Assembly (NCBI GenBank): GCA_020854915.1
Contig: JAHKLT010000027.1
Coordinates: 1 to 64,000, forward strand
Direction: 5' to 3'
Source of the DNA: Methanobacteriaceae archaeon
GTDB taxonomy: Archaea; Methanobacteriota; Methanobacteria; Methanobacteriales; Methanobacteriaceae
DNA length: 64,000 nt
Position 1 is the stretch's first letter, and each line of letters opens with the position of its first letter. The position numbers and the translations under genes were made by a program. This document shows positions 5,400 through 54,405 of this stretch, one piece after another. Under the pieces are notes generated by a model. That model did no database searches. It saw nothing but the letters and a program-made list of their open reading frames with translations, and was not told the origin of the DNA.

Positions 5400-5505
5400 A
5401 ATATTAATCCTTTTGTTTAGATAATAATAAAATATTGTTTAAATTACTATTTAAATAATTCGTCTGAATATAAAAAAGTTTAAAAATACAAACTAAACAA
5501 TAAAT

Positions 5506-6369
5506 TTAAAATAATGTTAAAAAATCATAAATAATTTTAGAAGAAGTAATAGCTGTAATATCTCCTAATTTATTAGAAGAATTTTCAACTAAATCAAAAC
5601 CTACTAAATTTTTTCCAACAAGTTCTTTAAAAATCAATTCAGTATCATTAGGAGATATTCCACAAGGAGTGGGATTTGAAACATTTGGAGCAAAAGAAGG
5701 ATCTAATACATCTAAATCAATAGTTAAATAAATAGGTGTTTTAATTTTATTTATTTTATCTAATGAATTTTTAATATTTTCTACAGAAAAAGAGCTAATA
5801 TTATTATTTGAAATAGAATAATTTTCTTCTTCTTTTGAAAATGACCGAATTCCTATTTGAATAAGTTCATCGATATCTAATTCATGTACTCTTCGTAAAA
5901 CAGTAGCATGAGAAAATTTTTCATCTATAAAATCATCTTTTAAATCCATATGTGCATCTAAATGGATTACAGTTAAATTATCATAGCTATTTAAAACTCC
6001 TTTAATAGAACCATAAGTAATACTATGTTCCCCACCAATGATTAATGGTTTAATATTATAAAAATTTAATTCATTTACAGTTTCTTCTAATATTTCACAA
6101 GTTTTAAGACAATTTCCAGGAATAGTATTCAAATCCCCAAAATCATAAAAAGGAGAATTTATATTTTTTTTAAAAACAGAATTAAAATTTTCAAACCCAA
6201 AAGAAGCTTCACGAATAGTTATTGGGCCTAATCTTGAACCTGTATGGTAAGAAGAAGTACTATCAAAAGGAACACCAATAATTCCCCAAGAATCTTTTTG
6301 AATTTCATCTAAATTTACAATTTCTTTTGAAAATGCAAATTTCCATGGTTCATATGTGTTTAAAAGCAT
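5506..6369 (-). CDS. speB: Agmatinase
   Basis: 287 residues of the ureohydrolase (arginase) family, normal length for agmatinase. Manganese ligands are visible in GGEHSITYG (His), DAHMDL (Asp-His-Asp) and TIDLDVLDP (two Asp). It hydrolyses agmatine to putrescine and urea in the polyamine pathway. It lies 20 bases downstream of the aIF5A gene in the same direction, with the arginine decarboxylase that makes agmatine divergent just beyond, so substrate supply and use are clustered. Confidence 0.93.
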   Translation of the reverse strand: MLLNTYEPWKFAFSKEIVNLDEIQKDSWGIIGVPFDSTSSYHTGSRLGPITIREASFGFENFNSVFKKNINSPFYDFGDLNTIPGNCLKTCEILEETVNELNFYNIKPLIIGGEHSITYGSIKGVLNSYDNLTVIHLDAHMDLKDDFIDEKFSHATVLRRVHELDIDELIQIGIRSFSKEEENYSISNNNISSFSVENIKNSLDKINKIKTPIYLTIDLDVLDPSFAPNVSNPTPCGISPNDTELIFKELVGKNLVGFDLVENSSNKLGDITAITSSKIIYDFLTLF

Positions 6370-7387: not shown

Positions 7388-9211
7388 ATGGAAGAATCTT
7401 ATATAAAACTTGCAAAAAAAATTTCTAAAGAAATTATTGATAAAGTCGAAAAAGAAATATCACCCCACATTGGTAAATCAAAATCTGGAGAGATTATTAA
7501 AAATGGAGCTGATGGTACTCCAACTTCATATATTGATATTTTAGCTGAAAATATTGTGATTGATATTTTAAAAAAACAAAATGAAAGTTTTTTTTTGATT
7601 AGTGAAGAGATTGGTGAGATGAAAGTTGGAAAAGGAAAAGTAGAAACCACAAATATCTATGAAATACTATCAGATAAAAATTTAGATTATTGTGAAATTC
7701 CAAAATTAATATTTCTAGTAGATCCATTAGATGGTACAAGTAATGCTATAAAAGAAATTCCATCATATGGTATTTCAATTGCTGTTGCCAAAACTCCAAA
7801 AGATAGAGTTGCAACATTAGATGATGTTGAATTAGGTTTTATTAAAAATTATGCCAATGGCAATCAATTTGAAGCTGAAAAAGGTAAAGGAGCATGGTTA
7901 AATGGTCAAACAACAAAACCCTCTGATGAAACAAAAATAAGTAATCTTTCATTTGGTGGTTTTACCAAAAGTAATACAGTAGAAGCTTCAAAATTAATAG
8001 ACACAGCAAGAAGAATGAGAGTTTTAGGTTCTGTTGTTTTAGAATTATCATATGTAGCTAGTGGAAAATATGATGCATTTCTTGATTTAAGAGGTAGTAG
8101 AATCATTGATATAGCTGCTTCTAAATTAATAGTAGAAGAATGTGGTGGAATCATCACAAATAAGTATGGTGAGACAATAAAGAGTAAGCTCAGCATACAT
8201 GAAAGAACAATGGTAGTTGCATCAGGTAATATTGACCTCCATAGCCAGATCATTGATATAATTAATAATAATGAAACAGAAATCATTGGAAAAATAGGTA
8301 TTATAAGTAGAGTAGATGATTATAAATCTATATTATTTTCTACTAAAATAATTGAGTTCCTTTTAAATAATGGAATGGATATTGTTATAGAAACTAGTTT
8401 AGCCCTTAAATTACAGGAGTTAAAAAATAATCCTAAAATCAATTATATAATCAGTAAAACAAAATTGGAAGCTCCTGAAATTGCAGAATTCTTAGATGAA
8501 TTAAAATTCAATGTTAATTATAAAGAATATTCCTGTAAAATAGATAAAATTGATTGTGATATGGCAATTATTTTAGGTGGAGATGGAACCTTACTTAGAA
8601 CTCAAAGTAAAATGATAAAAGAAATTCCTATTTTTGGTATTAACATGGGAACTGTAGGATTTTTAACTGAAATTGAAGTTAAAAATACCTTTACAGCATT
8701 AAAATCCATTATAAAAGGAAAATATTACACTGAAAAAAGAACACAACTTAGAGTTTCACATGAAAGCCAAAGATATTATGCATTAAATGAAGTAGTAATA
8801 ATGACTGAACAAACTGCTAAAATGCTTCATTTTGAAGTTGAAGTTGATGGTGAAGTTGTTGAAAAGTTTAGAGCTGATGGATTAATTATTTCAACACCGA
8901 GTGGTTCAACAGCTTATTCTATGTCTGCTGGTGGACCAATATTAGATCCAAAGGTTGGAGGATTCATAATAATCCCTATTTGTCCATTTAAATTAGGATT
9001 AAGGCCATTTATTGTTTCTGATAATAGTGAAATAAAAATTAAATTATTAAAAAAAGGTAAAAAAGCTATTTTTGTAATGGATGGTCAAATAAACGAAGAA
9101 ATGAGATATTTAGATGAAATAAAATTCGAAAAGGCTAAAAAGAAAGTTAATTTCATTAGAACAAGTAAAAAATATTTCTATAAAAAAATCAAAGATAAAT
9201 TAGCAGGATAA
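7388..9211 (+). CDS. Bifunctional NADP phosphatase / NAD kinase
   Basis: 607 residues in two domains. Residues ~1-290 are an inositol-monophosphatase-type phosphatase, with the metal-binding DPLDGTSNA motif and a late IIDIAASKLIVEECGG stretch. Residues ~295-607 are an NAD kinase with GGDGTLLR, NMGTVGFLTE and STPSGSTAYSMSAGGP. The same fusion is known from other methanogens (the MJ0917 type), where one protein can make and remove NADP. It starts 14 bases after pdaD and is probably in one transcript with it and with the following ligase gene. Confidence 0.92.
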   Translation: MEESYIKLAKKISKEIIDKVEKEISPHIGKSKSGEIIKNGADGTPTSYIDILAENIVIDILKKQNESFFLISEEIGEMKVGKGKVETTNIYEILSDKNLDYCEIPKLIFLVDPLDGTSNAIKEIPSYGISIAVAKTPKDRVATLDDVELGFIKNYANGNQFEAEKGKGAWLNGQTTKPSDETKISNLSFGGFTKSNTVEASKLIDTARRMRVLGSVVLELSYVASGKYDAFLDLRGSRIIDIAASKLIVEECGGIITNKYGETIKSKLSIHERTMVVASGNIDLHSQIIDIINNNETEIIGKIGIISRVDDYKSILFSTKIIEFLLNNGMDIVIETSLALKLQELKNNPKINYIISKTKLEAPEIAEFLDELKFNVNYKEYSCKIDKIDCDMAIILGGDGTLLRTQSKMIKEIPIFGINMGTVGFLTEIEVKNTFTALKSIIKGKYYTEKRTQLRVSHESQRYYALNEVVIMTEQTAKMLHFEVEVDGEVVEKFRADGLIISTPSGSTAYSMSAGGPILDPKVGGFIIIPICPFKLGLRPFIVSDNSEIKIKLLKKGKKAIFVMDGQINEEMRYLDEIKFEKAKKKVNFIRTSKKYFYKKIKDKLAG

Positions 9212-14109: not shown

Positions 14110-14266
14110 AATAAATCACCTCAAAAAAATTAGATTGAAAATATTTATTATATCTAAATATGTTTATTATTTAATATAAAATTTTCGTTATAAATTAAAA
14201 ATATGAATAAAAAATAGAAATTATTATAAAAATTATAAAAAGTGTTAGATAAATTAAAAATTTAAT

Positions 14267-15523
14267 TTATCTTCCAACTAACTTTAAATCAGTTTGTGCA
14301 ACAGTTTCAGTATCTAAAGCTCTTAGATCTGATCTGTTGAAATTTTTGATATCACTATGGCCTGCAAGTTGTGCAAGCATTTTTGCCTCTTCAGTCATAG
14401 CATTAATATAATTAGCTACTTGTTTAGCTGCAATATCAATATTACATTTTTCTTCAAGTTCAGGAATCTGAGTTGCAATACCTACTGGACATTTTCCAAT
14501 ATGACATAATCTACAACCAATACAACCCATAGCTATCATAGCACCTGTACCCACATATACTGCATCTGCACCCATAGCCATAGCTTTAGCTACATCTCCA
14601 CCATTACGGATTCCACCAGTAATGATTAAATCAACATCATCTTTAGCCCCAATTTCTTCTAAAGTACTAACAGCTTGATTAAGAGCAGGTAATGTAGGTA
14701 CACCAGTTTGTTCAATAACAACTTCAGGAGCTGCACCAGTTCCACCTTCCATACCATCAAGAGAAATAATATCTGCACCAGCTTCATAAGCTATTTTAAC
14801 ATCTTCATCAATACGACCAGGACCTAATTTTAAAATAATAGGAATTTTCCAATCAGTAACTTCCCTTATAAGTTCAATATGTTTAGCTAAATCTCCATCA
14901 TTCGGAGCATCTAAAAATCTACAAGGACTTAATGCATCAGTTCCTTCAGGAATTTCTCTAATCTCAGCAATATCTGGTGAAACTTTCTCTGCAAGCAAAT
15001 GCCCCCCCATACCTGGTTTTGCACCTTGACCAACTTTAACTTCAATAGCATCACCACTGTTTAAGTATTTTGAGGAAACACCAAATCTACCAGATGAATA
15101 CTGTACAACAAGATTATCAGCCATTGTTCTCTCATCAGGAAGCATACCCCCCTCACCAGTATTAGCTGCAGAACCTGACATAGCACTTCCTTTAGCCATA
15201 GCTAATTTACAACTTTTACTTAATGCACCAAAAGACATTCCAGCTATTAAAACAGGAGTTTTTAATTCTAATGGATTATCACAGAAACGTGTACCTAATG
15301 TTACACTTGTATCACATTTTTCTCTGTATTTATCTACAGGTGCAACAGATGCTTGACCAGGCAAAATAATTACATCATCAAAAGTTTTAATTTGTCTTTC
15401 TGCACCAAATCCTCTTAAAGAATACTCTCCAGTTCTTGCATTATGGCGAACTTGTTTAATTGTTTCTGTATTCCAAATATAACCAGCATTCATTATTCTT
15501 TTCTCATTTGTCATATAAATCAT
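14267..15523 (-). CDS. Glutamate synthase FMN-domain protein (GltB2-like)
   Basis: 418 residues corresponding to the FMN-binding synthase barrel of glutamate synthase. It has SGSAANTGEGGM, KYLNSGDAIEVKVGQGAKPG, SLDGMEGGTGAAPE and ITGGIRNGGDVAKAMAMGADAVYVGTG. Near the C-terminus, CIGCRLCHIGKCP supplies an iron-sulfur cysteine set. In many archaea glutamate synthase is split into separate amidotransferase, synthase and GXGXG genes; this is the synthase part, last of a three-gene unit with a ferredoxin and a GXGXG protein. No glutamine amidotransferase part is present in the window. Confidence 0.85.
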   Translation of the reverse strand: MIYMTNEKRIMNAGYIWNTETIKQVRHNARTGEYSLRGFGAERQIKTFDDVIILPGQASVAPVDKYREKCDTSVTLGTRFCDNPLELKTPVLIAGMSFGALSKSCKLAMAKGSAMSGSAANTGEGGMLPDERTMADNLVVQYSSGRFGVSSKYLNSGDAIEVKVGQGAKPGMGGHLLAEKVSPDIAEIREIPEGTDALSPCRFLDAPNDGDLAKHIELIREVTDWKIPIILKLGPGRIDEDVKIAYEAGADIISLDGMEGGTGAAPEVVIEQTGVPTLPALNQAVSTLEEIGAKDDVDLIITGGIRNGGDVAKAMAMGADAVYVGTGAMIAMGCIGCRLCHIGKCPVGIATQIPELEEKCNIDIAAKQVANYINAMTEEAKMLAQLAGHSDIKNFNRSDLRALDTETVAQTDLKLVGR

Positions 15524-47349: not shown

Positions 47350-47706
47350 CTAAGTTCTATAAAAAAAACTTAAAATGAAGCTAGGAAGTCTTCTCATATA
47401 TGCAAGAATAGCTAATATAATTATACTAACACCAATTATAATAAAAGTATAATTATAAGGATATGATAAAAATAAGCTCCCAGATATTGTAATAGCAATA
47501 CCATCTATTAAAAGAACTGCTTTATTCCATTGAGGTTTATATAAACTCAATAAATATCCCAAACCAACAGCAATTACTATTATAGATGTTGAAATAATTT
47601 CTGAATTAATACTTTGATTATTAAAAAGAGGTAAAATACCTACTAAAAATACAAATAATAAAATAAATATTGAAAATAATTTCTTTAAAAAACTGGTTTT
47701 AATCAT
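47350..47706 (-). CDS. Small four-span membrane protein
   Basis: 118 residues, not recognised: four hydrophobic helices (about 8-24, 34-54, 62-80, 86-104) with short loops and little charge apart from the ends. It starts one base after the preceding gene ends, so it is the last gene of the eight-gene PrpD-citryl-CoA lyase operon or of a three-gene tail of that transcript. There are no conserved functional residues I can name. Confidence 0.65.
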   Translation of the reverse strand: MIKTSFLKKLFSIFILLFVFLVGILPLFNNQSINSEIISTSIIVIAVGLGYLLSLYKPQWNKAVLLIDGIAITISGSLFLSYPYNYTFIIIGVSIIILAILAYMRRLPSFILSFFYRT

Positions 47707-47707
47707 C

Positions 47708-48043
47708 TCATTTCTCCTTTAATAATTTATCAAAATTAACAAATTCTAAATCATTACCTTCTTCATCTTTTTTTTCACTAGTTAATAAAACAAATCGAGA
47801 ATTTTTAAATATATTATATCCAAAGTATATAACATTTAAGAAAATTATAGGTGCAAAAAATAATAAAGCTATAACAATTATTAATAAATGAATATAAATA
47901 TTCCCATAAACTCTTTTTTTAGCTAATATGTAATTATCACCACTTGAATTTTTATGAAACCCAATATCTTCTAATTTATCCATATTATTATTCATTTCTT
48001 CTAAATTTTTTGAATAAACTACATCTAATTTCATTATTTTCAC
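47708..48043 (-). CDS. Small membrane protein of unknown function
   Basis: 111 residues, not recognised. A polar ~45-residue N-terminal part (VVYSKNLEEMNNNMDKLEDIG) is followed by a strongly hydrophobic hairpin (IYIHLLIIVIALLFFAPIIFLNVIYFGY) and a charged tail. The ATG at 48043 overlaps the stop of the upstream gene by four bases, showing translational coupling. It may work with the four-span membrane protein encoded next. Confidence 0.65.
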   Translation of the reverse strand: MKIMKLDVVYSKNLEEMNNNMDKLEDIGFHKNSSGDNYILAKKRVYGNIYIHLLIIVIALLFFAPIIFLNVIYFGYNIFKNSRFVLLTSEKKDEEGNDLEFVNFDKLLKEK

Positions 48044-48396
48044 TGACTAGGTATATTTTCTGTATTTTCAACTTTAAAATCAAAATTAAAAATTTCATTT
48101 TTATTGTGGATAGCTATTGCAAATTTAGATTCAAGATTAATAAAATCTTTTTCTACTTTTATTATAATATCAATATCACTAACACGAGTTAAAGAAAATT
48201 TATTTGCAGAAAAAACAGAAGATGCATTATAAATTTCTAAAAATAAAGGAATACCCTCATTACTAAAAATTAGATTAAAGTTATCATTTAATAAAATTTC
48301 TTTTCCTTTATTATCACCTTTAGAGATCGTAACAATTAATAAATCATTTCTAAGATTATACTTTGATTTTATATTCATTTCTTCTTCAGAAGACAT
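48040..48396 (-). CDS. Small soluble protein of unknown function (DUF2283-like?)
   Basis: 118 residues predicted to be mainly beta strands. The stretch LNDNFNLIFSNEGIPLFLEIYNASSVF recalls the DUF2283 pattern (a strand, a turn with acidic or polar residues, then an IEILNAS-like strand), but the match is weak. It begins nine bases after the nitroreductase gene and overlaps the next by four, so it belongs to the same transcript. Confidence 0.55.
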   Translation of the reverse strand: MSSEEEMNIKSKYNLRNDLLIVTISKGDNKGKEILLNDNFNLIFSNEGIPLFLEIYNASSVFSANKFSLTRVSDIDIIIKVEKDFINLESKFAIAIHNKNEIFNFDFKVENTENIPSQ

Positions 48397-48405
48397 TTAG
48401 AACAC

Positions 48406-48912
48406 TCAAATATATTTTACTAATTCATCGACTGATTTACGAGGAGTATCTCTTGGTTCTGCATTTGGATAACCTAATGGACTAAATAAAAGAGGTTCAT
48501 AATCCTCGGATAAATTTAAAAGTTCTTTTGCTACTTGAGGATTAAAAGCACCAATATAACAAGTTCCAAGGCCTAAAGATGTAGCTTCAAGTATCATATG
48601 ATCCATTACAATAGTACCATCAATGTCTGCAATATTTTTATTATCTACTTTTCTAACCCATGCATCTTCTGGTTTTACAGCTATGGCTATAAGTATTGGG
48701 GCTTCAAAAGGCCATGATTGAGGATAAAGTTCTTTTAATTTTTCTTTATTCTTTTTTGTATCAATAACAAATACTTTAAATGGTTGAAAGTTAACTCCAG
48801 TAGGAGCAGATATTCCAGCTTCAAGAATTTTATCTAATTTCTCTTTTTCAACTTCCCTATCTTCAAAACCTCTAACACTATATCTTTCTTTTATTGTATC
48901 TAAAAATTCCAT
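48406..48912 (-). CDS. Nitroreductase-family flavoprotein
   Basis: 168 residues: IKERYSVRGFEDREVEKEKL with the FMN-binding RYSVR start, AGISAPTGVNFQPFKVFV, and the C-terminal GLGTCYIGAFNPQVAKELL and SPLGYPNAEPRD. It uses FMN and NAD(P)H or reduced F420 to reduce varied acceptors. It lies 11 bases after the citryl-CoA-lyase-like gene, so it may supply redox steps to that pathway; the substrate is unknown. Confidence 0.88.
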   Translation of the reverse strand: MEFLDTIKERYSVRGFEDREVEKEKLDKILEAGISAPTGVNFQPFKVFVIDTKKNKEKLKELYPQSWPFEAPILIAIAVKPEDAWVRKVDNKNIADIDGTIVMDHMILEATSLGLGTCYIGAFNPQVAKELLNLSEDYEPLLFSPLGYPNAEPRDTPRKSVDELVKYI

Positions 48913-48923
48913 ATTATCACCTA

Positions 48924-49718
48924 TTAATCTTTAAAAATAATATCATCTAAATCACAAAATTTTCTAAACTCTTCTTCATCAATAGATTCTTCATAAACAT
49001 GAGCAACAATTCCTGGAACCCTACCAATCATAAAAATTCCTAAACCTAATTTAGGATTAAAACCCAAATCAGAAAGTAGTGCCGCATTAACTCCATCAAT
49101 ATTCAATCTTATGTTTTTATTATCTTTTAATAAATTTTCTAATGTAAAAGCAAGTTTTGTGTGATTTCCAACAAATCCTTCTGTGATAGCTATATCCATT
49201 ATTTTAGAAGCTCTGGGATCTATGTCATGGTATCTATGTCCAAAGCCAGGAAATTTTTTGTTTTTTTCATTATAGCTATTAAAAATATTAATAGCTAATT
49301 GAACAATTTGTTGATTATCAATATCCACATCATCAGTCAAATTTAAGCTATTAATTGCATTTTGATATAAATTCATAGCTTTTTCAATAGCGCCAGCATG
49401 ATTTCTACCAAAGGATAATAATCCTCCAGCTACAGCACTATTCATTGGAGAACCTGAAGAAGAAATTAATCTTGCTGTTTGAGTACTTGGTGGAGTAGCT
49501 CCATGATCACAAAAAGAAACTAATATACGATTAAATAATTTCCCATCTTTTTTAGAAGGTAAAATACCTTTTAAAAGAAGATAAATCATATCACTAAAAG
49601 AGATATGTTCTATTAGCTCTTCTTGATTATAACCTCTTGTTGAAATCATATTAGGTTTAATATCAGAAATAGCTGTTTTTAAGTAATGTTCGTTAATTTT
49701 AAAATTATTTTCTTTCAT
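48924..49718 (-). CDS. Citryl-CoA lyase-like protein (citrate synthase fold)
   Basis: 264 residues, much shorter than citrate synthase but right for the archaeal/Hydrogenobacter-type citryl-CoA lyase. Active-site stretches are visible: SFCDHGATPPSTQTAR (the DHE-like segment), GGLLSFGRNHAGAIE and KFPGFGHRYHDIDPRA (catalytic His equivalent), then DGVNAALLSDLGF. It would split or join an acyl-CoA with a 2-oxoacid such as oxaloacetate. Its start overlaps the end of the fumarase-type gene by one base. The actual acid is not known; see the finding on this operon. Confidence 0.8.
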   Translation of the reverse strand: MKENNFKINEHYLKTAISDIKPNMISTRGYNQEELIEHISFSDMIYLLLKGILPSKKDGKLFNRILVSFCDHGATPPSTQTARLISSSGSPMNSAVAGGLLSFGRNHAGAIEKAMNLYQNAINSLNLTDDVDIDNQQIVQLAINIFNSYNEKNKKFPGFGHRYHDIDPRASKIMDIAITEGFVGNHTKLAFTLENLLKDNKNIRLNIDGVNAALLSDLGFNPKLGLGIFMIGRVPGIVAHVYEESIDEEEFRKFCDLDDIIFKD

Positions 49719-50608
49719 TATTCACCTAATTTAATTGTACTTATCCTTGGTTCAACAAAACAAGATGGCCTTGAAGCAATAATTCTAACACCACTAGCTC
49801 TTTGAGGACCAATATTAATAAAAGTTCCAAGAACTGTCATATTACCACTAAGCCCTAAAGGCCCTATATTTGTTTTATTTAATTCATTACTAATATAATT
49901 TTCAATTTTTGATTGTTTTTTTAAATCCCCATAAATCAAAGCTTTGAGCATTAGTTGGTTTGCTTCTAAATGAGTTCTTCCAATACCAATAGATGGAATA
50001 GAAGGAGTGCAACCTAATAATTTTAAAGAATCTTTAAGCCATGTAATTGTTTCGTTTAAAATATTATTATAATCATTTTTATGAAATATCCTATAAGTTT
50101 TAGCTCTTATTTCAGGCCCTCCTCCAAGAAGAATTATATGAATATTTAAAGTATCAGGATTTATATCTCTTTTATAACTAGATTCATAAAAGCCATCATC
50201 AATAATGAAATTAGCTGGATTTAACATTGAAGGTTCATCAAATAAACCTTTATTCTGATTTAATCTTTCTATATCTATTCCTTTAACTGCCATTGGCCTT
50301 CCTGGAAGATTTTCTAAACCTTTTGAAATACCTTCATTAATTTGATGTATCATCTCACCAGATAATACCATTTTAGAACCAATTTCAACTACGACATGTG
50401 GAATTCCAGTATCATCACAAAGTGGAAGTTTTTTATTATTAGCTATTTTTAAATTTTTAATTATTAACTCTAATGCCCAAATAGCATTTTCATTAGATCC
50501 ATTTTTTTCTAAGTCTAATGCTTTCTCGAAAATAGCTATTTTATCAATGTATCTTGAAGATGAACTAGCTTCTATTACTGCATTTTGAACTTTTTTTCTA
50601 ATATCCAT
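49718..50608 (-). CDS. Class-I fumarase/tartrate dehydratase alpha-type hydratase
   Basis: 296 residues of the iron-sulfur hydratase alpha subunit family: LPLCDDTGIPHVVVEIG, LLGCTPSIPSIGIGRTHLEA, TNIGPLGLSGNMTVLG and RPSCFVEPR. Three cysteines are in positions fitting the [4Fe-4S] ligands. The usual beta subunit, needed for the active enzyme, is not encoded next to it or elsewhere in the window, so it may pair with a distant beta gene or act on its own with a different acid. It lies nine bases after the U32-like gene. Confidence 0.82.
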   Translation of the reverse strand: MDIRKKVQNAVIEASSSSRYIDKIAIFEKALDLEKNGSNENAIWALELIIKNLKIANNKKLPLCDDTGIPHVVVEIGSKMVLSGEMIHQINEGISKGLENLPGRPMAVKGIDIERLNQNKGLFDEPSMLNPANFIIDDGFYESSYKRDINPDTLNIHIILLGGGPEIRAKTYRIFHKNDYNNILNETITWLKDSLKLLGCTPSIPSIGIGRTHLEANQLMLKALIYGDLKKQSKIENYISNELNKTNIGPLGLSGNMTVLGTFINIGPQRASGVRIIASRPSCFVEPRISTIKLGE

Positions 50609-50617
50609 AATATGTAC

Positions 50618-51517
50618 CTATTCAGGAATAGCTAAATCTTTATAAGAACTTGAAGGAACTGCATCAGAACAATACTTATCTATTATCTCATTAACTAATT
50701 TAACTTGTTTTAATCTAGCAAATATTTCTTTTGAACTACTTTCGAAATTATGGATACTTGCAATAGATCCTCCTGTTTTTAAGTAAACTGGGGATGCAAC
50801 TTTAATAAAATCTGGAACTTCATAATGCCTTATAAATCCTCCACTAGATTTAGGGTTTTCTGTATGAATATCTAAAGGCATATAAATTGTAGACCTAATA
50901 GCTGCAATCATTGGAATTTGTAGATCTCTAACCGGATTAATAGAATTTGCACCATTTTCTTCTAGTAGTTTAAAAGATGCTGGATTTCCATGACCAGTAT
51001 GCGCAGAGACTTTAAATTTAAGGTTTTTTGGCAACTCTCCATCTTTTCTCATTTTATTTAAAACCCACAAAAGACCTTCATCATATAATAAAATTCCCCT
51101 TACACCTAAATTAACTGCTTTTAATACATCTTCAATAGCATAGACTAAATTATTATAACCTCTAATTCTATAACCTATTCTTGAACCTTCCTTTGTTTGA
51201 GCTGATGCACTTGTATCATATGTTGCTCTTGGGCCAACTGCTAAAAATAATTCTGTTTCATATTTTTTTCCAATATTAACCATTTTTTTAATTTCATCAT
51301 TGGATAAAAGCATTATTCCTTTTGTTTGTGTTATTCTATGGATTTTAATATCTTCTTTTTTTGCTTCTTTTAATAAAATTTCCATATGTTCTGGATTTTG
51401 AATTCCTGGAACTTCAAAGCGATATTGACCACCATCATTAAATCTTTTTAAAGAAATAAAATCACTTTGAACTTCTTTAATTCCTAATTTTTCAAGATAT
51501 TTTTTAGTAAGTTCCAT
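50618..51517 (-). CDS. U32-peptidase-like TIM-barrel protein
   Basis: 299 residues. The pattern of alternating strands and helices, with VRGILLYDEGLLWVLNKM, LKFKVSAHTGHGNPASFKLLEENGA and a PLDIHTENP loop, resembles the U32 peptidase-type barrels found near carboxylic-acid genes; the classical U32 motif is not clear, so a real protease activity is doubtful. An enzyme of acid metabolism is an alternative. It lies 12 bases after the PrpD gene and nine before the hydratase gene, so it acts in the same pathway. Confidence 0.6.
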   Translation of the reverse strand: MELTKKYLEKLGIKEVQSDFISLKRFNDGGQYRFEVPGIQNPEHMEILLKEAKKEDIKIHRITQTKGIMLLSNDEIKKMVNIGKKYETELFLAVGPRATYDTSASAQTKEGSRIGYRIRGYNNLVYAIEDVLKAVNLGVRGILLYDEGLLWVLNKMRKDGELPKNLKFKVSAHTGHGNPASFKLLEENGANSINPVRDLQIPMIAAIRSTIYMPLDIHTENPKSSGGFIRHYEVPDFIKVASPVYLKTGGSIASIHNFESSSKEIFARLKQVKLVNEIIDKYCSDAVPSSSYKDLAIPE

Positions 51518-51529
51518 TGTTAACCTTCA

Positions 51530-52921
51530 TCATACATTTAATATTTCTAAAATCTGCTTTACATCATGAAATTCCATATTATCAATAATAGATAAGTTCG
51601 ATAAATTATAATCAGGATTTAAACTTTTAAATTTATCAATAAGGTCTTCTAAAGATAATGGGTTTTCAATATCCCCCTTTGGAATCATAGTAGTATTTTG
51701 AAATAAACCTCCTCTAAATCTTTCATTTAACCTTATAATAATGTTTGTTGGTCTTAAATTTGGAAATAGATTATTTAATTCTTCATCTGGAATTATTGTA
51801 ATTTTATCTACCAATTTTTTTATATCATTAATTTTAGAAGAAGAGCTATCCTCATCAAATAAACCATCATAGACTAATTCATCTATTAAATCTAGATTAA
51901 TTTCACCACAAATTAATGTAATAGCTACTGCATAAGGTAAGCTATTTTTTAATTCATCTTTGCTTTTAGGATTATAATTATCATGTTCAGAAGCTATATC
52001 ATAAGTTTTTATTAAAACTTTATCAATAGCTCCATATTCTTTACAAATATTTATTCTAAGTTTTAATGCTGTATCAATAGCTGAATGAATATGCCTACAA
52101 AAAGGATACTTCTTAAAGTAAATATCATTAAAGCTAAATTTATTAAAATTATTTAAAAGATTTTTTTGATTTAAAAGGTCTGTTTTAAAAACAAAACTAT
52201 TTAAAAAGCCTTTTTTTCCTTCAAAAATAGATTTGCTTCCACTGAACCCATTTTTAGACAATGTTGCCCCTAAAATACCATTATAAATAGCTTTACCTAT
52301 ATTTAATGATTTACCCATTGTTCCACTGTGACCTGATTCTAAAAGTCCACTAGCTTGAGTTCCACAAAGACCAAAAGTATTTAAAATTTTATTTTTATCT
52401 AATTTTAATAATTTTGAGGCTACAGCACCTGATACAAAGGTTCCTATAGTTCCAGATGTATGAAAACCATTATTTCTATGTTGAGGATTAACAATAGAAC
52501 CTAAAAAAATTCCAACTTGATAACCTACTATAACACTTTCTAAGAAGTCGCTACCTGATAAGTTATAAGCTTCACTAATTGCTAAAGCTGTTGGAAAAAC
52601 AATAGCTCCTAAATGCATTTGAGCTATTTTATGACCATCATCAAGTTCCAAATTATGAGCTGAAATTCCATTTACAAATGCAGCATCAATCATTGAAAGT
52701 TTTAATTCATGATTCCCAATTACACTCGATTTTAAATCATTATTAAAACCATATAATTCATTAATTGTTTTTAAAGCTATTTTTGAAGAATCTTCTTTAA
52801 AACCTCTTCGAGCAACAGAAAAAAAGTCTAAAAAAGATGCTTTAGCTATTTGTGAAGTTTTAATATCTTCTTCAGCATATTGAAAATTATAAATAAATTC
52901 TGAAATTTCTCTAAGAACCAT
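51530..52921 (-). CDS. MmgE/PrpD-family dehydratase
   Basis: 463 residues, full length for the MmgE/PrpD family (2-methylcitrate and cis-aconitate related dehydratases and isomerases). Family stretches include NGISAHNLELDDGHKIAQMH (active-site region), GYQVGIFLG, RNNGFHTSGTIGTFVSGAVA and YPFCRHIHSAIDTALKL. It would remove water from a citrate- or methylcitrate-like acid. First metabolic gene of the operon, 48 bases after the AAA ATPase gene on the same strand. Confidence 0.88.
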   Translation of the reverse strand: MVLREISEFIYNFQYAEEDIKTSQIAKASFLDFFSVARRGFKEDSSKIALKTINELYGFNNDLKSSVIGNHELKLSMIDAAFVNGISAHNLELDDGHKIAQMHLGAIVFPTALAISEAYNLSGSDFLESVIVGYQVGIFLGSIVNPQHRNNGFHTSGTIGTFVSGAVASKLLKLDKNKILNTFGLCGTQASGLLESGHSGTMGKSLNIGKAIYNGILGATLSKNGFSGSKSIFEGKKGFLNSFVFKTDLLNQKNLLNNFNKFSFNDIYFKKYPFCRHIHSAIDTALKLRINICKEYGAIDKVLIKTYDIASEHDNYNPKSKDELKNSLPYAVAITLICGEINLDLIDELVYDGLFDEDSSSSKINDIKKLVDKITIIPDEELNNLFPNLRPTNIIIRLNERFRGGLFQNTTMIPKGDIENPLSLEDLIDKFKSLNPDYNLSNLSIIDNMEFHDVKQILEILNV

Positions 52922-52969
52922 ATTATACCTTTTTTATTTTGTTAAATATATTTTTATTTAAAATTCTTT

Positions 52970-54160
52970 TCATATTATCCTATAAGGATAAGTTCCTCTA
53001 TTTCCATATTCTTCTTTTAACCAAGCTTTTAAAATAGGTTCTGAAATAGAATAAATCCCCTTATCATTTTTTATTACAGATATATTTTGTAATTTATTTA
53101 ATGATTTACTTAATGAACTTGAAGGAATATTAATGCTTTCAGATATCTCTTTTCTTTTTAAAGGTTTATTTACTAAACTTACAATTATTTTCTGTTCTGT
53201 TAAATTCAAAGTTGCCCATTGATATTTTAAATGGTCTGCAAGAATAGGAATAATTTTTTTAAATTCATTTTTTACATCCTGATTATTTAAAACTTTGTTC
53301 TTTGGAAGTAGATTTGCAAAAGTATTAACATAATGAGGTATCCCATTTGTACAATTATAAAATCTTTCAAAACCATCTTTTTTTAATTTTAAAGAAGGTA
53401 ATTTCTCATTTAAATAATTATAAACAGTTTTTTTACTAAAAGGATTAATTTCTATTGTTAACATCCTACCTCCAAATGCACCCATTTGACTAGCTATTTT
53501 TTCAAAAACAATATCCTTAGAATTTAGAGATCCAGAAAACACATATGCAACATTTTTTTGATTTTGTATAATACTTCTAAAAAACCATAAAAACCCATCT
53601 AAATCTTTATCTAAATCTTTAATAGCTTGAAATTCATCAATTATTATAATTACGCCTTTGATTTCATTTGAATATTCATTATATATTTTTTGAGGAAAAT
53701 CTAGAACAAAGTTTAACAGTTTCTCATAATCTTCTTCTGATTCAGTAATAGGTATTGGGTATCCTCCTATATCAATTATTTGGCTTATTTTATATTTTTT
53801 AGTAGAGAATTTTTTCTTAATACTATTGATTAATGTATTAAACCCCTTTTCTTTTGCAGATTTCATCCAAGATTTATAAAACTGATGCATAATTCCTATT
53901 TCAGTTAATTTACCAGATTGATAACTATAAGATTGTGTTAAATCTACATAAGAAACCATATAATCGGATTCTAATTCTTTTTTAATTTTTTTAAGTAAAA
54001 CTGTTTTTCCAACACCTCTAATTCCAGGCATTATTATTGTTGGTGGTGAACCCATGCTTGTTGTATTTAATAAACTTTTTATAGATTCAAGATCCTCTTT
54101 TCTATTATAAAATTGATTATTAGTTAGTTCTGAATCTGTACCCCATGGTAAATTATCCAT
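52970..54160 (-). CDS. Archaeal AAA-type ATPase with winged-helix end
   Basis: 396 residues. Walker A is IMPGIRGVGKTVLLKKI near residue 48 and Walker B IIIIDEFQAI near 172; an AYVFSGSLNS sensor strand follows, and the C-terminal ~80 residues are a winged helix (KPLKRKEISESINIPSSSLSKSLNKL). This is the archaeal ATPase family (ORC/STAND-like) of unknown clients, often lineage-specific and sometimes regulatory. It is preceded by the 45-bp repeat array and could regulate the operon that follows 48 bases later. Confidence 0.8.
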   Translation of the reverse strand: MDNLPWGTDSELTNNQFYNRKEDLESIKSLLNTTSMGSPPTIIMPGIRGVGKTVLLKKIKKELESDYMVSYVDLTQSYSYQSGKLTEIGIMHQFYKSWMKSAKEKGFNTLINSIKKKFSTKKYKISQIIDIGGYPIPITESEEDYEKLLNFVLDFPQKIYNEYSNEIKGVIIIIDEFQAIKDLDKDLDGFLWFFRSIIQNQKNVAYVFSGSLNSKDIVFEKIASQMGAFGGRMLTIEINPFSKKTVYNYLNEKLPSLKLKKDGFERFYNCTNGIPHYVNTFANLLPKNKVLNNQDVKNEFKKIIPILADHLKYQWATLNLTEQKIIVSLVNKPLKRKEISESINIPSSSLSKSLNKLQNISVIKNDKGIYSISEPILKAWLKEEYGNRGTYPYRII

Positions 54161-54210
54161 ATTAATTACCCTTTTATTTTATTTATATTACTTTTTAAAT
54201 TTATATGATT

Positions 54211-54405
54211 TTTAGAATACATATATCTTTTAGAATATATATAATAAGTATACTTTTTAGAATACATATACCTTTTAGAATATATATAATAAGTATACTT
54301 TTTATAATACATATACCTTTTAGAATATATATAATAAGTATACTTTTTAGAATACATATACCTTTTAGAATATATATAATAAGTATACTTTTTATAATAC
54401 ATATA
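54211..54405 (-). repeat. 45-bp minisatellite in the leader of the AAA-PrpD operon
   Basis: Four full 45-base units start at 54211, 54256, 54301 and 54346, with a partial fifth at 54391. Units alternate between TTTAGAATAC and TTTATAATAC starts, so the array grew in two-unit steps. Each unit contains AGTATACTT and ATATATAATA, close to TATA-box sequence on the minus strand. No stops occur in frame: on the minus strand it would read KRYMYSKKYTYYIYS repeats and on the plus strand an Ile-rich chain. Neither has a ribosome site, so I treat it as non-coding DNA. Confidence 0.9.

Follow-up and report, generated by a model that had tools for sequence, protein, structure and literature searches.

The DNA analyzed here is a 64,000-nucleotide stretch from a Methanobacteriaceae archaeon (contig JAHKLT010000027.1, positions 1 to 64,000; hereafter the window), and the subject is a run of nine minus-strand open reading frames (ORFs) within it. 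An earlier note on this sequence had read them as one operon. All nine ORFs were recovered at the same positions (Table 1), and family assignment with Pfam and NCBIfam models upheld the AAA ATPase, PrpD, fumarase-alpha, citryl-CoA lyase, and nitroreductase calls, leaving three small ORFs without a family. Gene names used without a model test (tiaS-like, korDABC, NeuB, and others) were read off the sequence. From the AAA ATPase gene to mem1, successive intergenic gaps are 48, 12, 9, −1, 11, 9, −4, and 1 bases, a spacing from which a single transcript appears plausible. Promoter and terminator scans gave fewer matches than expected by chance and are uninformative for an archaeon. Thus, the ORFs and families described in that note stood, whereas its view of which genes belong to the unit and of a hydratase alpha subunit lacking its beta partner did not, as described below.

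Table 1. Minus-strand genes of the locus in window coordinates
Feature	Coordinates	Strand	Family or basis
AAA ATPase (ATPase_2)	52970..54160	-	PF01637
MmgE/PrpD-family protein (PrpD), 463 aa, core gene 1	51530..52921	-	PF03972 + PF19305
U32-like TIM-barrel protein (U32), 299 aa, core gene 2	50618..51517	-	weak PF01136 match + AlphaFold model
FumA′, class-I Fe-S hydro-lyase alpha subunit paralog, 296 aa, core gene 3	49718..50608	-	PF05681
CCL, citryl-CoA-lyase/citrate-synthase-fold protein, 264 aa, core gene 4	48924..49718	-	NF004866 (Citrate_synt)
Nitroreductase-family flavoprotein, accessory	48406..48912	-	PF00881
Small ORF	48040..48396	-	no Pfam/NCBIfam match
mem2, small membrane protein	47708..48043	-	no family; 32-45% identity to relatives
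mem1, small membrane protein	47350..47706	-	no family; 35-47% identity to relatives

The conserved unit is the four genes PrpD-U32-FumA′-CCL, because the AAA ATPase gene is missing from the loci of relatives and only one lineage has the nitroreductase and small membrane genes beside the core. The U32 gene was found in 77 of the 100 Methanobacteriaceae genomes searched and in 129 of 152 genomes of the class Methanobacteria, thermophiles and gut species included. Gene order was kept in nearly all of the relatives' loci that we read across the class; the core is tightly packed in Methanothermobacter- and Methanothermus-type genomes, and it is usually flanked by a tiaS-like gene on one side and the A-type ATPase operon on the other. 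Neighborhood comparison, in which scattered genes had been named as the refuting outcome, therefore found a core that is clustered in nearly all relatives. One locus (L037, genome G007) carries a truncated second U32 copy next to the intact gene (5443-5891 and 7688-8563), with an ATPase-like gene between them.

The remaining genes of the locus differ in their distribution. None of 80 named related loci contained the AAA ATPase gene, and L056, the nearest relative, has PrpD immediately after tiaS. The ATPase gene, previously taken for an attached regulator, is probably a recent insertion between the tiaS-like gene and PrpD in this genome. A tandem array of 45-base units (4.4 copies, 97% matches; window 54209-54405) lies directly upstream of it, where the insertion probably took place. 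The nitroreductase and small membrane genes do belong to the run seen here, but they are lineage-specific accessories that stand beside the core only in Methanobrevibacter-type genomes; the nitroreductase gene did not adjoin the core in the Methanobacterium-, Methanothermobacter-, or Methanothermus-type loci read. The small ORF between nitroreductase and mem2 had no tblastn match in the relatives' loci searched.

We then considered the four core proteins individually. The U32 protein of the window scored 18.9 bits against the Pfam U32 cut-off of 22.4, which its relatives exceed, and its AlphaFold model (mean predicted local distance difference test score, 86.8) had the U32 protein MK0906 (5d88) as best fold match in the PDB, with class II aldolases and methylisocitrate lyases ranking next; a profile search of PDB sequences gave no match. 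The description "U32-like barrel" is therefore borne out. Charged residues invariant across the family are E35, R61, D101, D146, K169, D198, R208, D216, R230, and K247. U32 hydroxylases of the UbiU/UbiV/TrhP type are defined by four Fe-S cysteines, and these are missing here, the window protein having a single cysteine that is not conserved.

Both MmgE/PrpD domains of PrpD scored above their cut-offs, and its closest solved relatives, by PDB profile and phmmer searches, were iminodisuccinate (IDS) epimerase and cis-aconitate decarboxylase (ACOD1). Against the 2-methylcitrate dehydratase equivalog TIGR02330 it reached only 33.4 bits (cut-off, 458), which argues against the earlier assignment to 2-methylcitrate. 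Invariant D93, H102, H153, K203, and H278 align in register with ACOD1 residues that we take to be catalytic. FumA′ contains three invariant cysteines (C64, C200, and C283 in the alignment of relatives), corresponding to the three Fe-S cysteines, and was best matched in the PDB by a fumarate hydratase (7xky). It nevertheless fell below the cut-off of the fumarate hydratase equivalog NF004885 (93.2 bits vs 276) and below those of the tartrate dehydratase models. A housekeeping fumarase role was rejected for FumA′, which is a paralog: the genome also carries a genuine fumarase alpha subunit at another site (336 bits vs 151 for FumA′). CCL passed the citryl-CoA lyase model NF004866 (392.7 bits; cut-off, 245) and matched the solved citryl-CoA lyase 6hxp (E = 2.8e-71). 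Its invariant H72, H161, and D208 form the His/His/Asp set of the citrate-synthase fold and, by analogy with citrate synthase, are presumably catalytic. CCL was the sole citrate-synthase-fold gene found in the genome.

Although FumA′ has no beta subunit beside it, as the earlier note had said, the window genome encodes two hydratase beta subunits, the second of which, FumB′, lies on another contig (C30 of G000, 14186-14674). FumB′ proteins were 46-51% identical to the beta subunits of the clostridial clusters described below (47-48% for the copy of the window genome), compared with 31-37% to housekeeping beta subunits (37%). Among the 100 family genomes, FumB′ (E < 1e-50) was detected in nearly all that carry U32, most of the few genomes without it being incomplete assemblies, whereas genomes of genus g3 gave matches to the housekeeping beta subunit only (E about 1e-12 to 1e-16). 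Action of the alpha subunit on its own was therefore rejected, and FumA′ is predicted to pair with FumB′ as a class-I Fe-S hydro-lyase. Two FumB′ copies were present in G066 (C1:32264-32746 and C4:249901-250377), the sole such genome among the matches listed. At L216 (G401), FumB′ and ppsA, both intact in relatives, are spread across two or three reading frames, which reflects either a sequencing error or a real frameshift.

The genomic position of FumB′ connects the core to methanofuran. Its neighbor passed the MfnA model TIGR03812 at about 550 bits (cut-off, 299.4); mfnA is the first gene of methanofuran biosynthesis, and MTH1116 is the MfnA of M. thermautotrophicus delta-H. We located mfnA phylum-wide and measured its distance to FumB′. 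FumB′ was present in 74 genomes of family f1, of which 41 had it on one contig with mfnA; the two genes lay <5 kb apart in 29 of these 41, representing 11 of 16 operon genera, and in most cases FumB′ immediately followed mfnA on the same strand. This arrangement extends over Methanothermus-, Methanothermobacter-, and most Methanobacteriaceae-type genera. All seven genomes checked from families f2, f3, and f4 showed the order ppsA-mfnA-FumB′, with ORFs overlapping or nearly so in several, and for this reason the mfnA-FumB′ pairing is probably ancestral in the class. Only FumB′ adjoins mfn genes; the four-gene core itself does not.

Methanofuran carries the first carbon in the reduction of CO2 to methane. 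The tail of methanofuran-a (MFR-a; Methanobacterium) ends in 1,3,4,6-hexanetetracarboxylic acid (HTCA) and that of MFR-c (Methanobrevibacter smithii) in a hydroxy form of HTCA, while the methanofurans of Methanosarcina and Methanococcales end in glutamates, without a tail acid. The tail acid has been a known compound for decades, its structure and labeling studies reportedly going back to Leigh (1984), White (1987, 1988), and Gorkovenko (1994). Our literature search on HTCA found nothing relevant, and the genes for this four-acid tail appear to be unknown so far. The side chain distinguishes five types of methanofuran: terminal residues are present in MFR-a and MFR-c, and MFR-e contains a linker; as of 2021, enzymes for the polyglutamate side chain still awaited identification (PMC8141765).

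We compared the presence of the gene set with tail type over the 152 Methanobacteria genomes and two control genomes from outside the class, M. jannaschii and M. acetivorans. PrpD had no match in either control genome and the citrate-synthase fold none in M. jannaschii, absences compatible with the tail types given above. Within the class, all sampled Methanosphaera lacked both FumB′ and the operon (scored by U32) while retaining ppsA, mfnA, and mfnB. We took genus g3 to be Methanosphaera because a contig of G053 was identical, over the 20 kb searched, to a plasmid of Methanosphaera sp. ISO3-F5. Absence of CdhC, of the carbon monoxide dehydrogenase/acetyl-CoA synthase, was dropped as a marker of this genus, as gut Methanobrevibacter-type genomes also lack it. 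Methanosphaera reportedly cannot activate CO2 through formylmethanofuran dehydrogenase, for want of molybdopterin (PMC10658910).

We propose, with a probability of roughly 0.68, that PrpD, U32, FumA′, and CCL, together with the unlinked FumB′, make HTCA, the tail acid of MFR-a and, in hydroxylated form, of the Methanobrevibacter coenzyme. This proposal is drawn from genomic evidence: the gene set is conserved, FumB′ is supplied in trans and coupled to mfnA, FumB′ and the operon are jointly lost in Methanosphaera, the distribution of the operon appears to fit the tail type in the genomes sampled (a terminal residue in MFR-a and MFR-c, and no PrpD in either control genome), and the enzyme types suit the chemistry of disubstituted malates and fumarates. 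If correct, it would give a first function to a large protein group annotated as U32 peptidases and would add one further loss to those known in methyl-reducing Methanosphaera. Naming a five-gene set also makes the question of the tail-acid genes directly testable.

A reaction order can be sketched, although we regard it as tentative and rather doubtful in its details. HTCA may be viewed as a pair of glutarate units linked C2 to C2. CCL, working as a synthase, could condense a C5 acyl-CoA such as glutaryl-CoA with 2-oxoglutarate to give 3-hydroxy-HTCA in one step. FumA′B′ and PrpD would dehydrate or isomerize this disubstituted malate to a disubstituted fumarate or maleate, which a reductase might convert to the disubstituted succinate; candidates are thiol:fumarate reductase and, in some lineages, the nitroreductase. 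The U32 barrel would most likely act on a 2-oxo acid in the manner of an aldolase or lyase, and a separate ligase would join the tail acid to the gamma-glutamyl chain.

Homologs of the core also occur in bacteria. Tissierella simiarum (L131, L134, and L157) and other Clostridia have U32 proteins 56-61% identical to that of the window, and their clusters resemble the methanogen set in combining the U32, PrpD, FumA′, and FumB′ families. They differ in that a CitE-like C-C_Bond_Lyase (PF15617) replaces CCL, an ATP-grasp ligase and in some cases a 2-hydroxyacid dehydrogenase are added, and the setting is one of surface-sugar genes (NeuB-, DegT-, and RfbA/RfbB-like). In another clostridial group (L158-L162), a U32 relative stands beside class-I fumarase alpha and beta, malic-enzyme-like, and further dehydrogenase-like genes, possibly with a catabolic use. 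Going by gene content, the theme common to the clostridial groups is a putative U32 barrel beside enzymes of fumarate-type acids, and the core enzymes look like part of a broader route to substituted-succinate acids. A wider generalization is conceivable, at somewhat less than even odds: U32, the PrpD-type enzyme, and FumA′B′ would constitute an unrecognized route to branched tetracarboxylic or substituted-succinate acids, serving the methanofuran tail in Methanobacteria and an amide-linked decoration of surface sugars in Clostridia, with U32 as a new C-C bond enzyme. More distant U32 relatives (33-39% identity) occur on plasmids of Thermomicrobium, Streptomyces, Nonomuraea, and Enterobacter, with the other core genes not alongside. 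The Enterobacter relative (L145, 8914-9852) is accompanied by two iron-containing redox enzymes, an aminotransferase, a nucleotidyltransferase, and a major facilitator superfamily transporter, resembling a small natural-product cluster.

Several observations weigh against a role in the methanofuran tail. Neither an obvious reductase nor a ligase is encoded in the core; in the 12 remaining one-contig genomes of family f1, all of genus g5 (Methanobrevibacter smithii-type), FumB′ and mfnA are 50-120 kb apart, and in the window's own genome they are located on separate contigs. Loss in Methanosphaera represents only one evolutionary event. Moreover, the clostridial homologs (58-61% identity for the close U32 proteins) occur in surface-glycan clusters, so the product could be another acid, and no methanofuran is known from Clostridia. 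Such homologs are the basis for an alternative in which the set makes a polycarboxylic substituent of a cell-surface glycan or other envelope polymer. The closest bacterial homologs do adjoin the NeuB-, DegT-, and RfbA/RfbB-like genes and the ATP-grasp ligase, and small membrane genes adjoin the core in Methanobrevibacter-type genomes, but none of the Methanobacteria loci read had glycan genes beside the core. As the core is also near-universal across thermophiles and gut species, with FumB′ coupled to mfnA, we consider an envelope role unlikely.

We think it similarly improbable that the genes serve central or amino-acid metabolism through a C6/C7 tricarboxylic route resembling that of citrate or 2-methylcitrate, with condensation or cleavage of the citryl-CoA type, dehydration by PrpD, and a hydratase. 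The scores of CCL against the citryl-CoA lyase subfamily model and 6hxp are what such a route would predict, and tri- and dicarboxylates are substrates of the PrpD and class-I hydratase families; however, PrpD lies far below the methylcitrate dehydratase models, nearest to IDS epimerase and cis-aconitate decarboxylase, and both the mfnA-FumB′ coupling and the Methanosphaera loss would be left unexplained. The FumB′-mfnA linkage is why we favor the tetracarboxylic tail acid of methanofuran over citrate or methylcitrate metabolism. Of the undescribed tricarboxylic-acid route suggested earlier, the idea of a polycarboxylic acid made by clustered genes is retained, whereas the gene membership and the citrate or methylcitrate product are not. 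Finally, the genes might act in the methanofuran or a neighboring cofactor pathway but yield a product that is not HTCA, such as a different acyl group or the hydroxylated variant alone. The mfnA linkage indeed fixes the pathway better than the product, and the tails of Methanobrevibacter and Methanobacterium methanofurans differ, but a core common to Methanothermobacter- and Methanobrevibacter-type genomes should make what their tails share, and we judge this variant very unlikely.

The proposed HTCA genes can also be set against characterized systems. MfnA to MfnF occur in the same organisms and serve the same coenzyme, with FumB′ coupled to mfnA; they differ in building the methanofuran core and first glutamate, and none makes the tail acid. 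The 2-methylcitrate cycle (PrpC/PrpD/PrpB) and citryl-CoA lyase systems likewise combine a citrate-synthase fold with MmgE/PrpD and dehydrate a Claisen-type product. Unlike these, the window has a short CCL rather than full-length PrpC, a PrpD on the IDS epimerase/ACOD1 side, and a class-I Fe-S hydratase plus U32 barrel in place of PrpB; no citryl-CoA synthetase was seen at the locus. FumA′B′ shares with FumAB, mesaconase, and TtdAB the Fe-S alpha and beta subunits with conserved alpha-subunit cysteines, whereas FumA′ departs from FumAB and TtdAB in its sub-threshold fumarase and tartrate dehydratase scores and in having the housekeeping pair encoded separately. Elsewhere in the window, a 30-base repeat of 4.5 perfect copies occupies positions 1-136, at the window edge.

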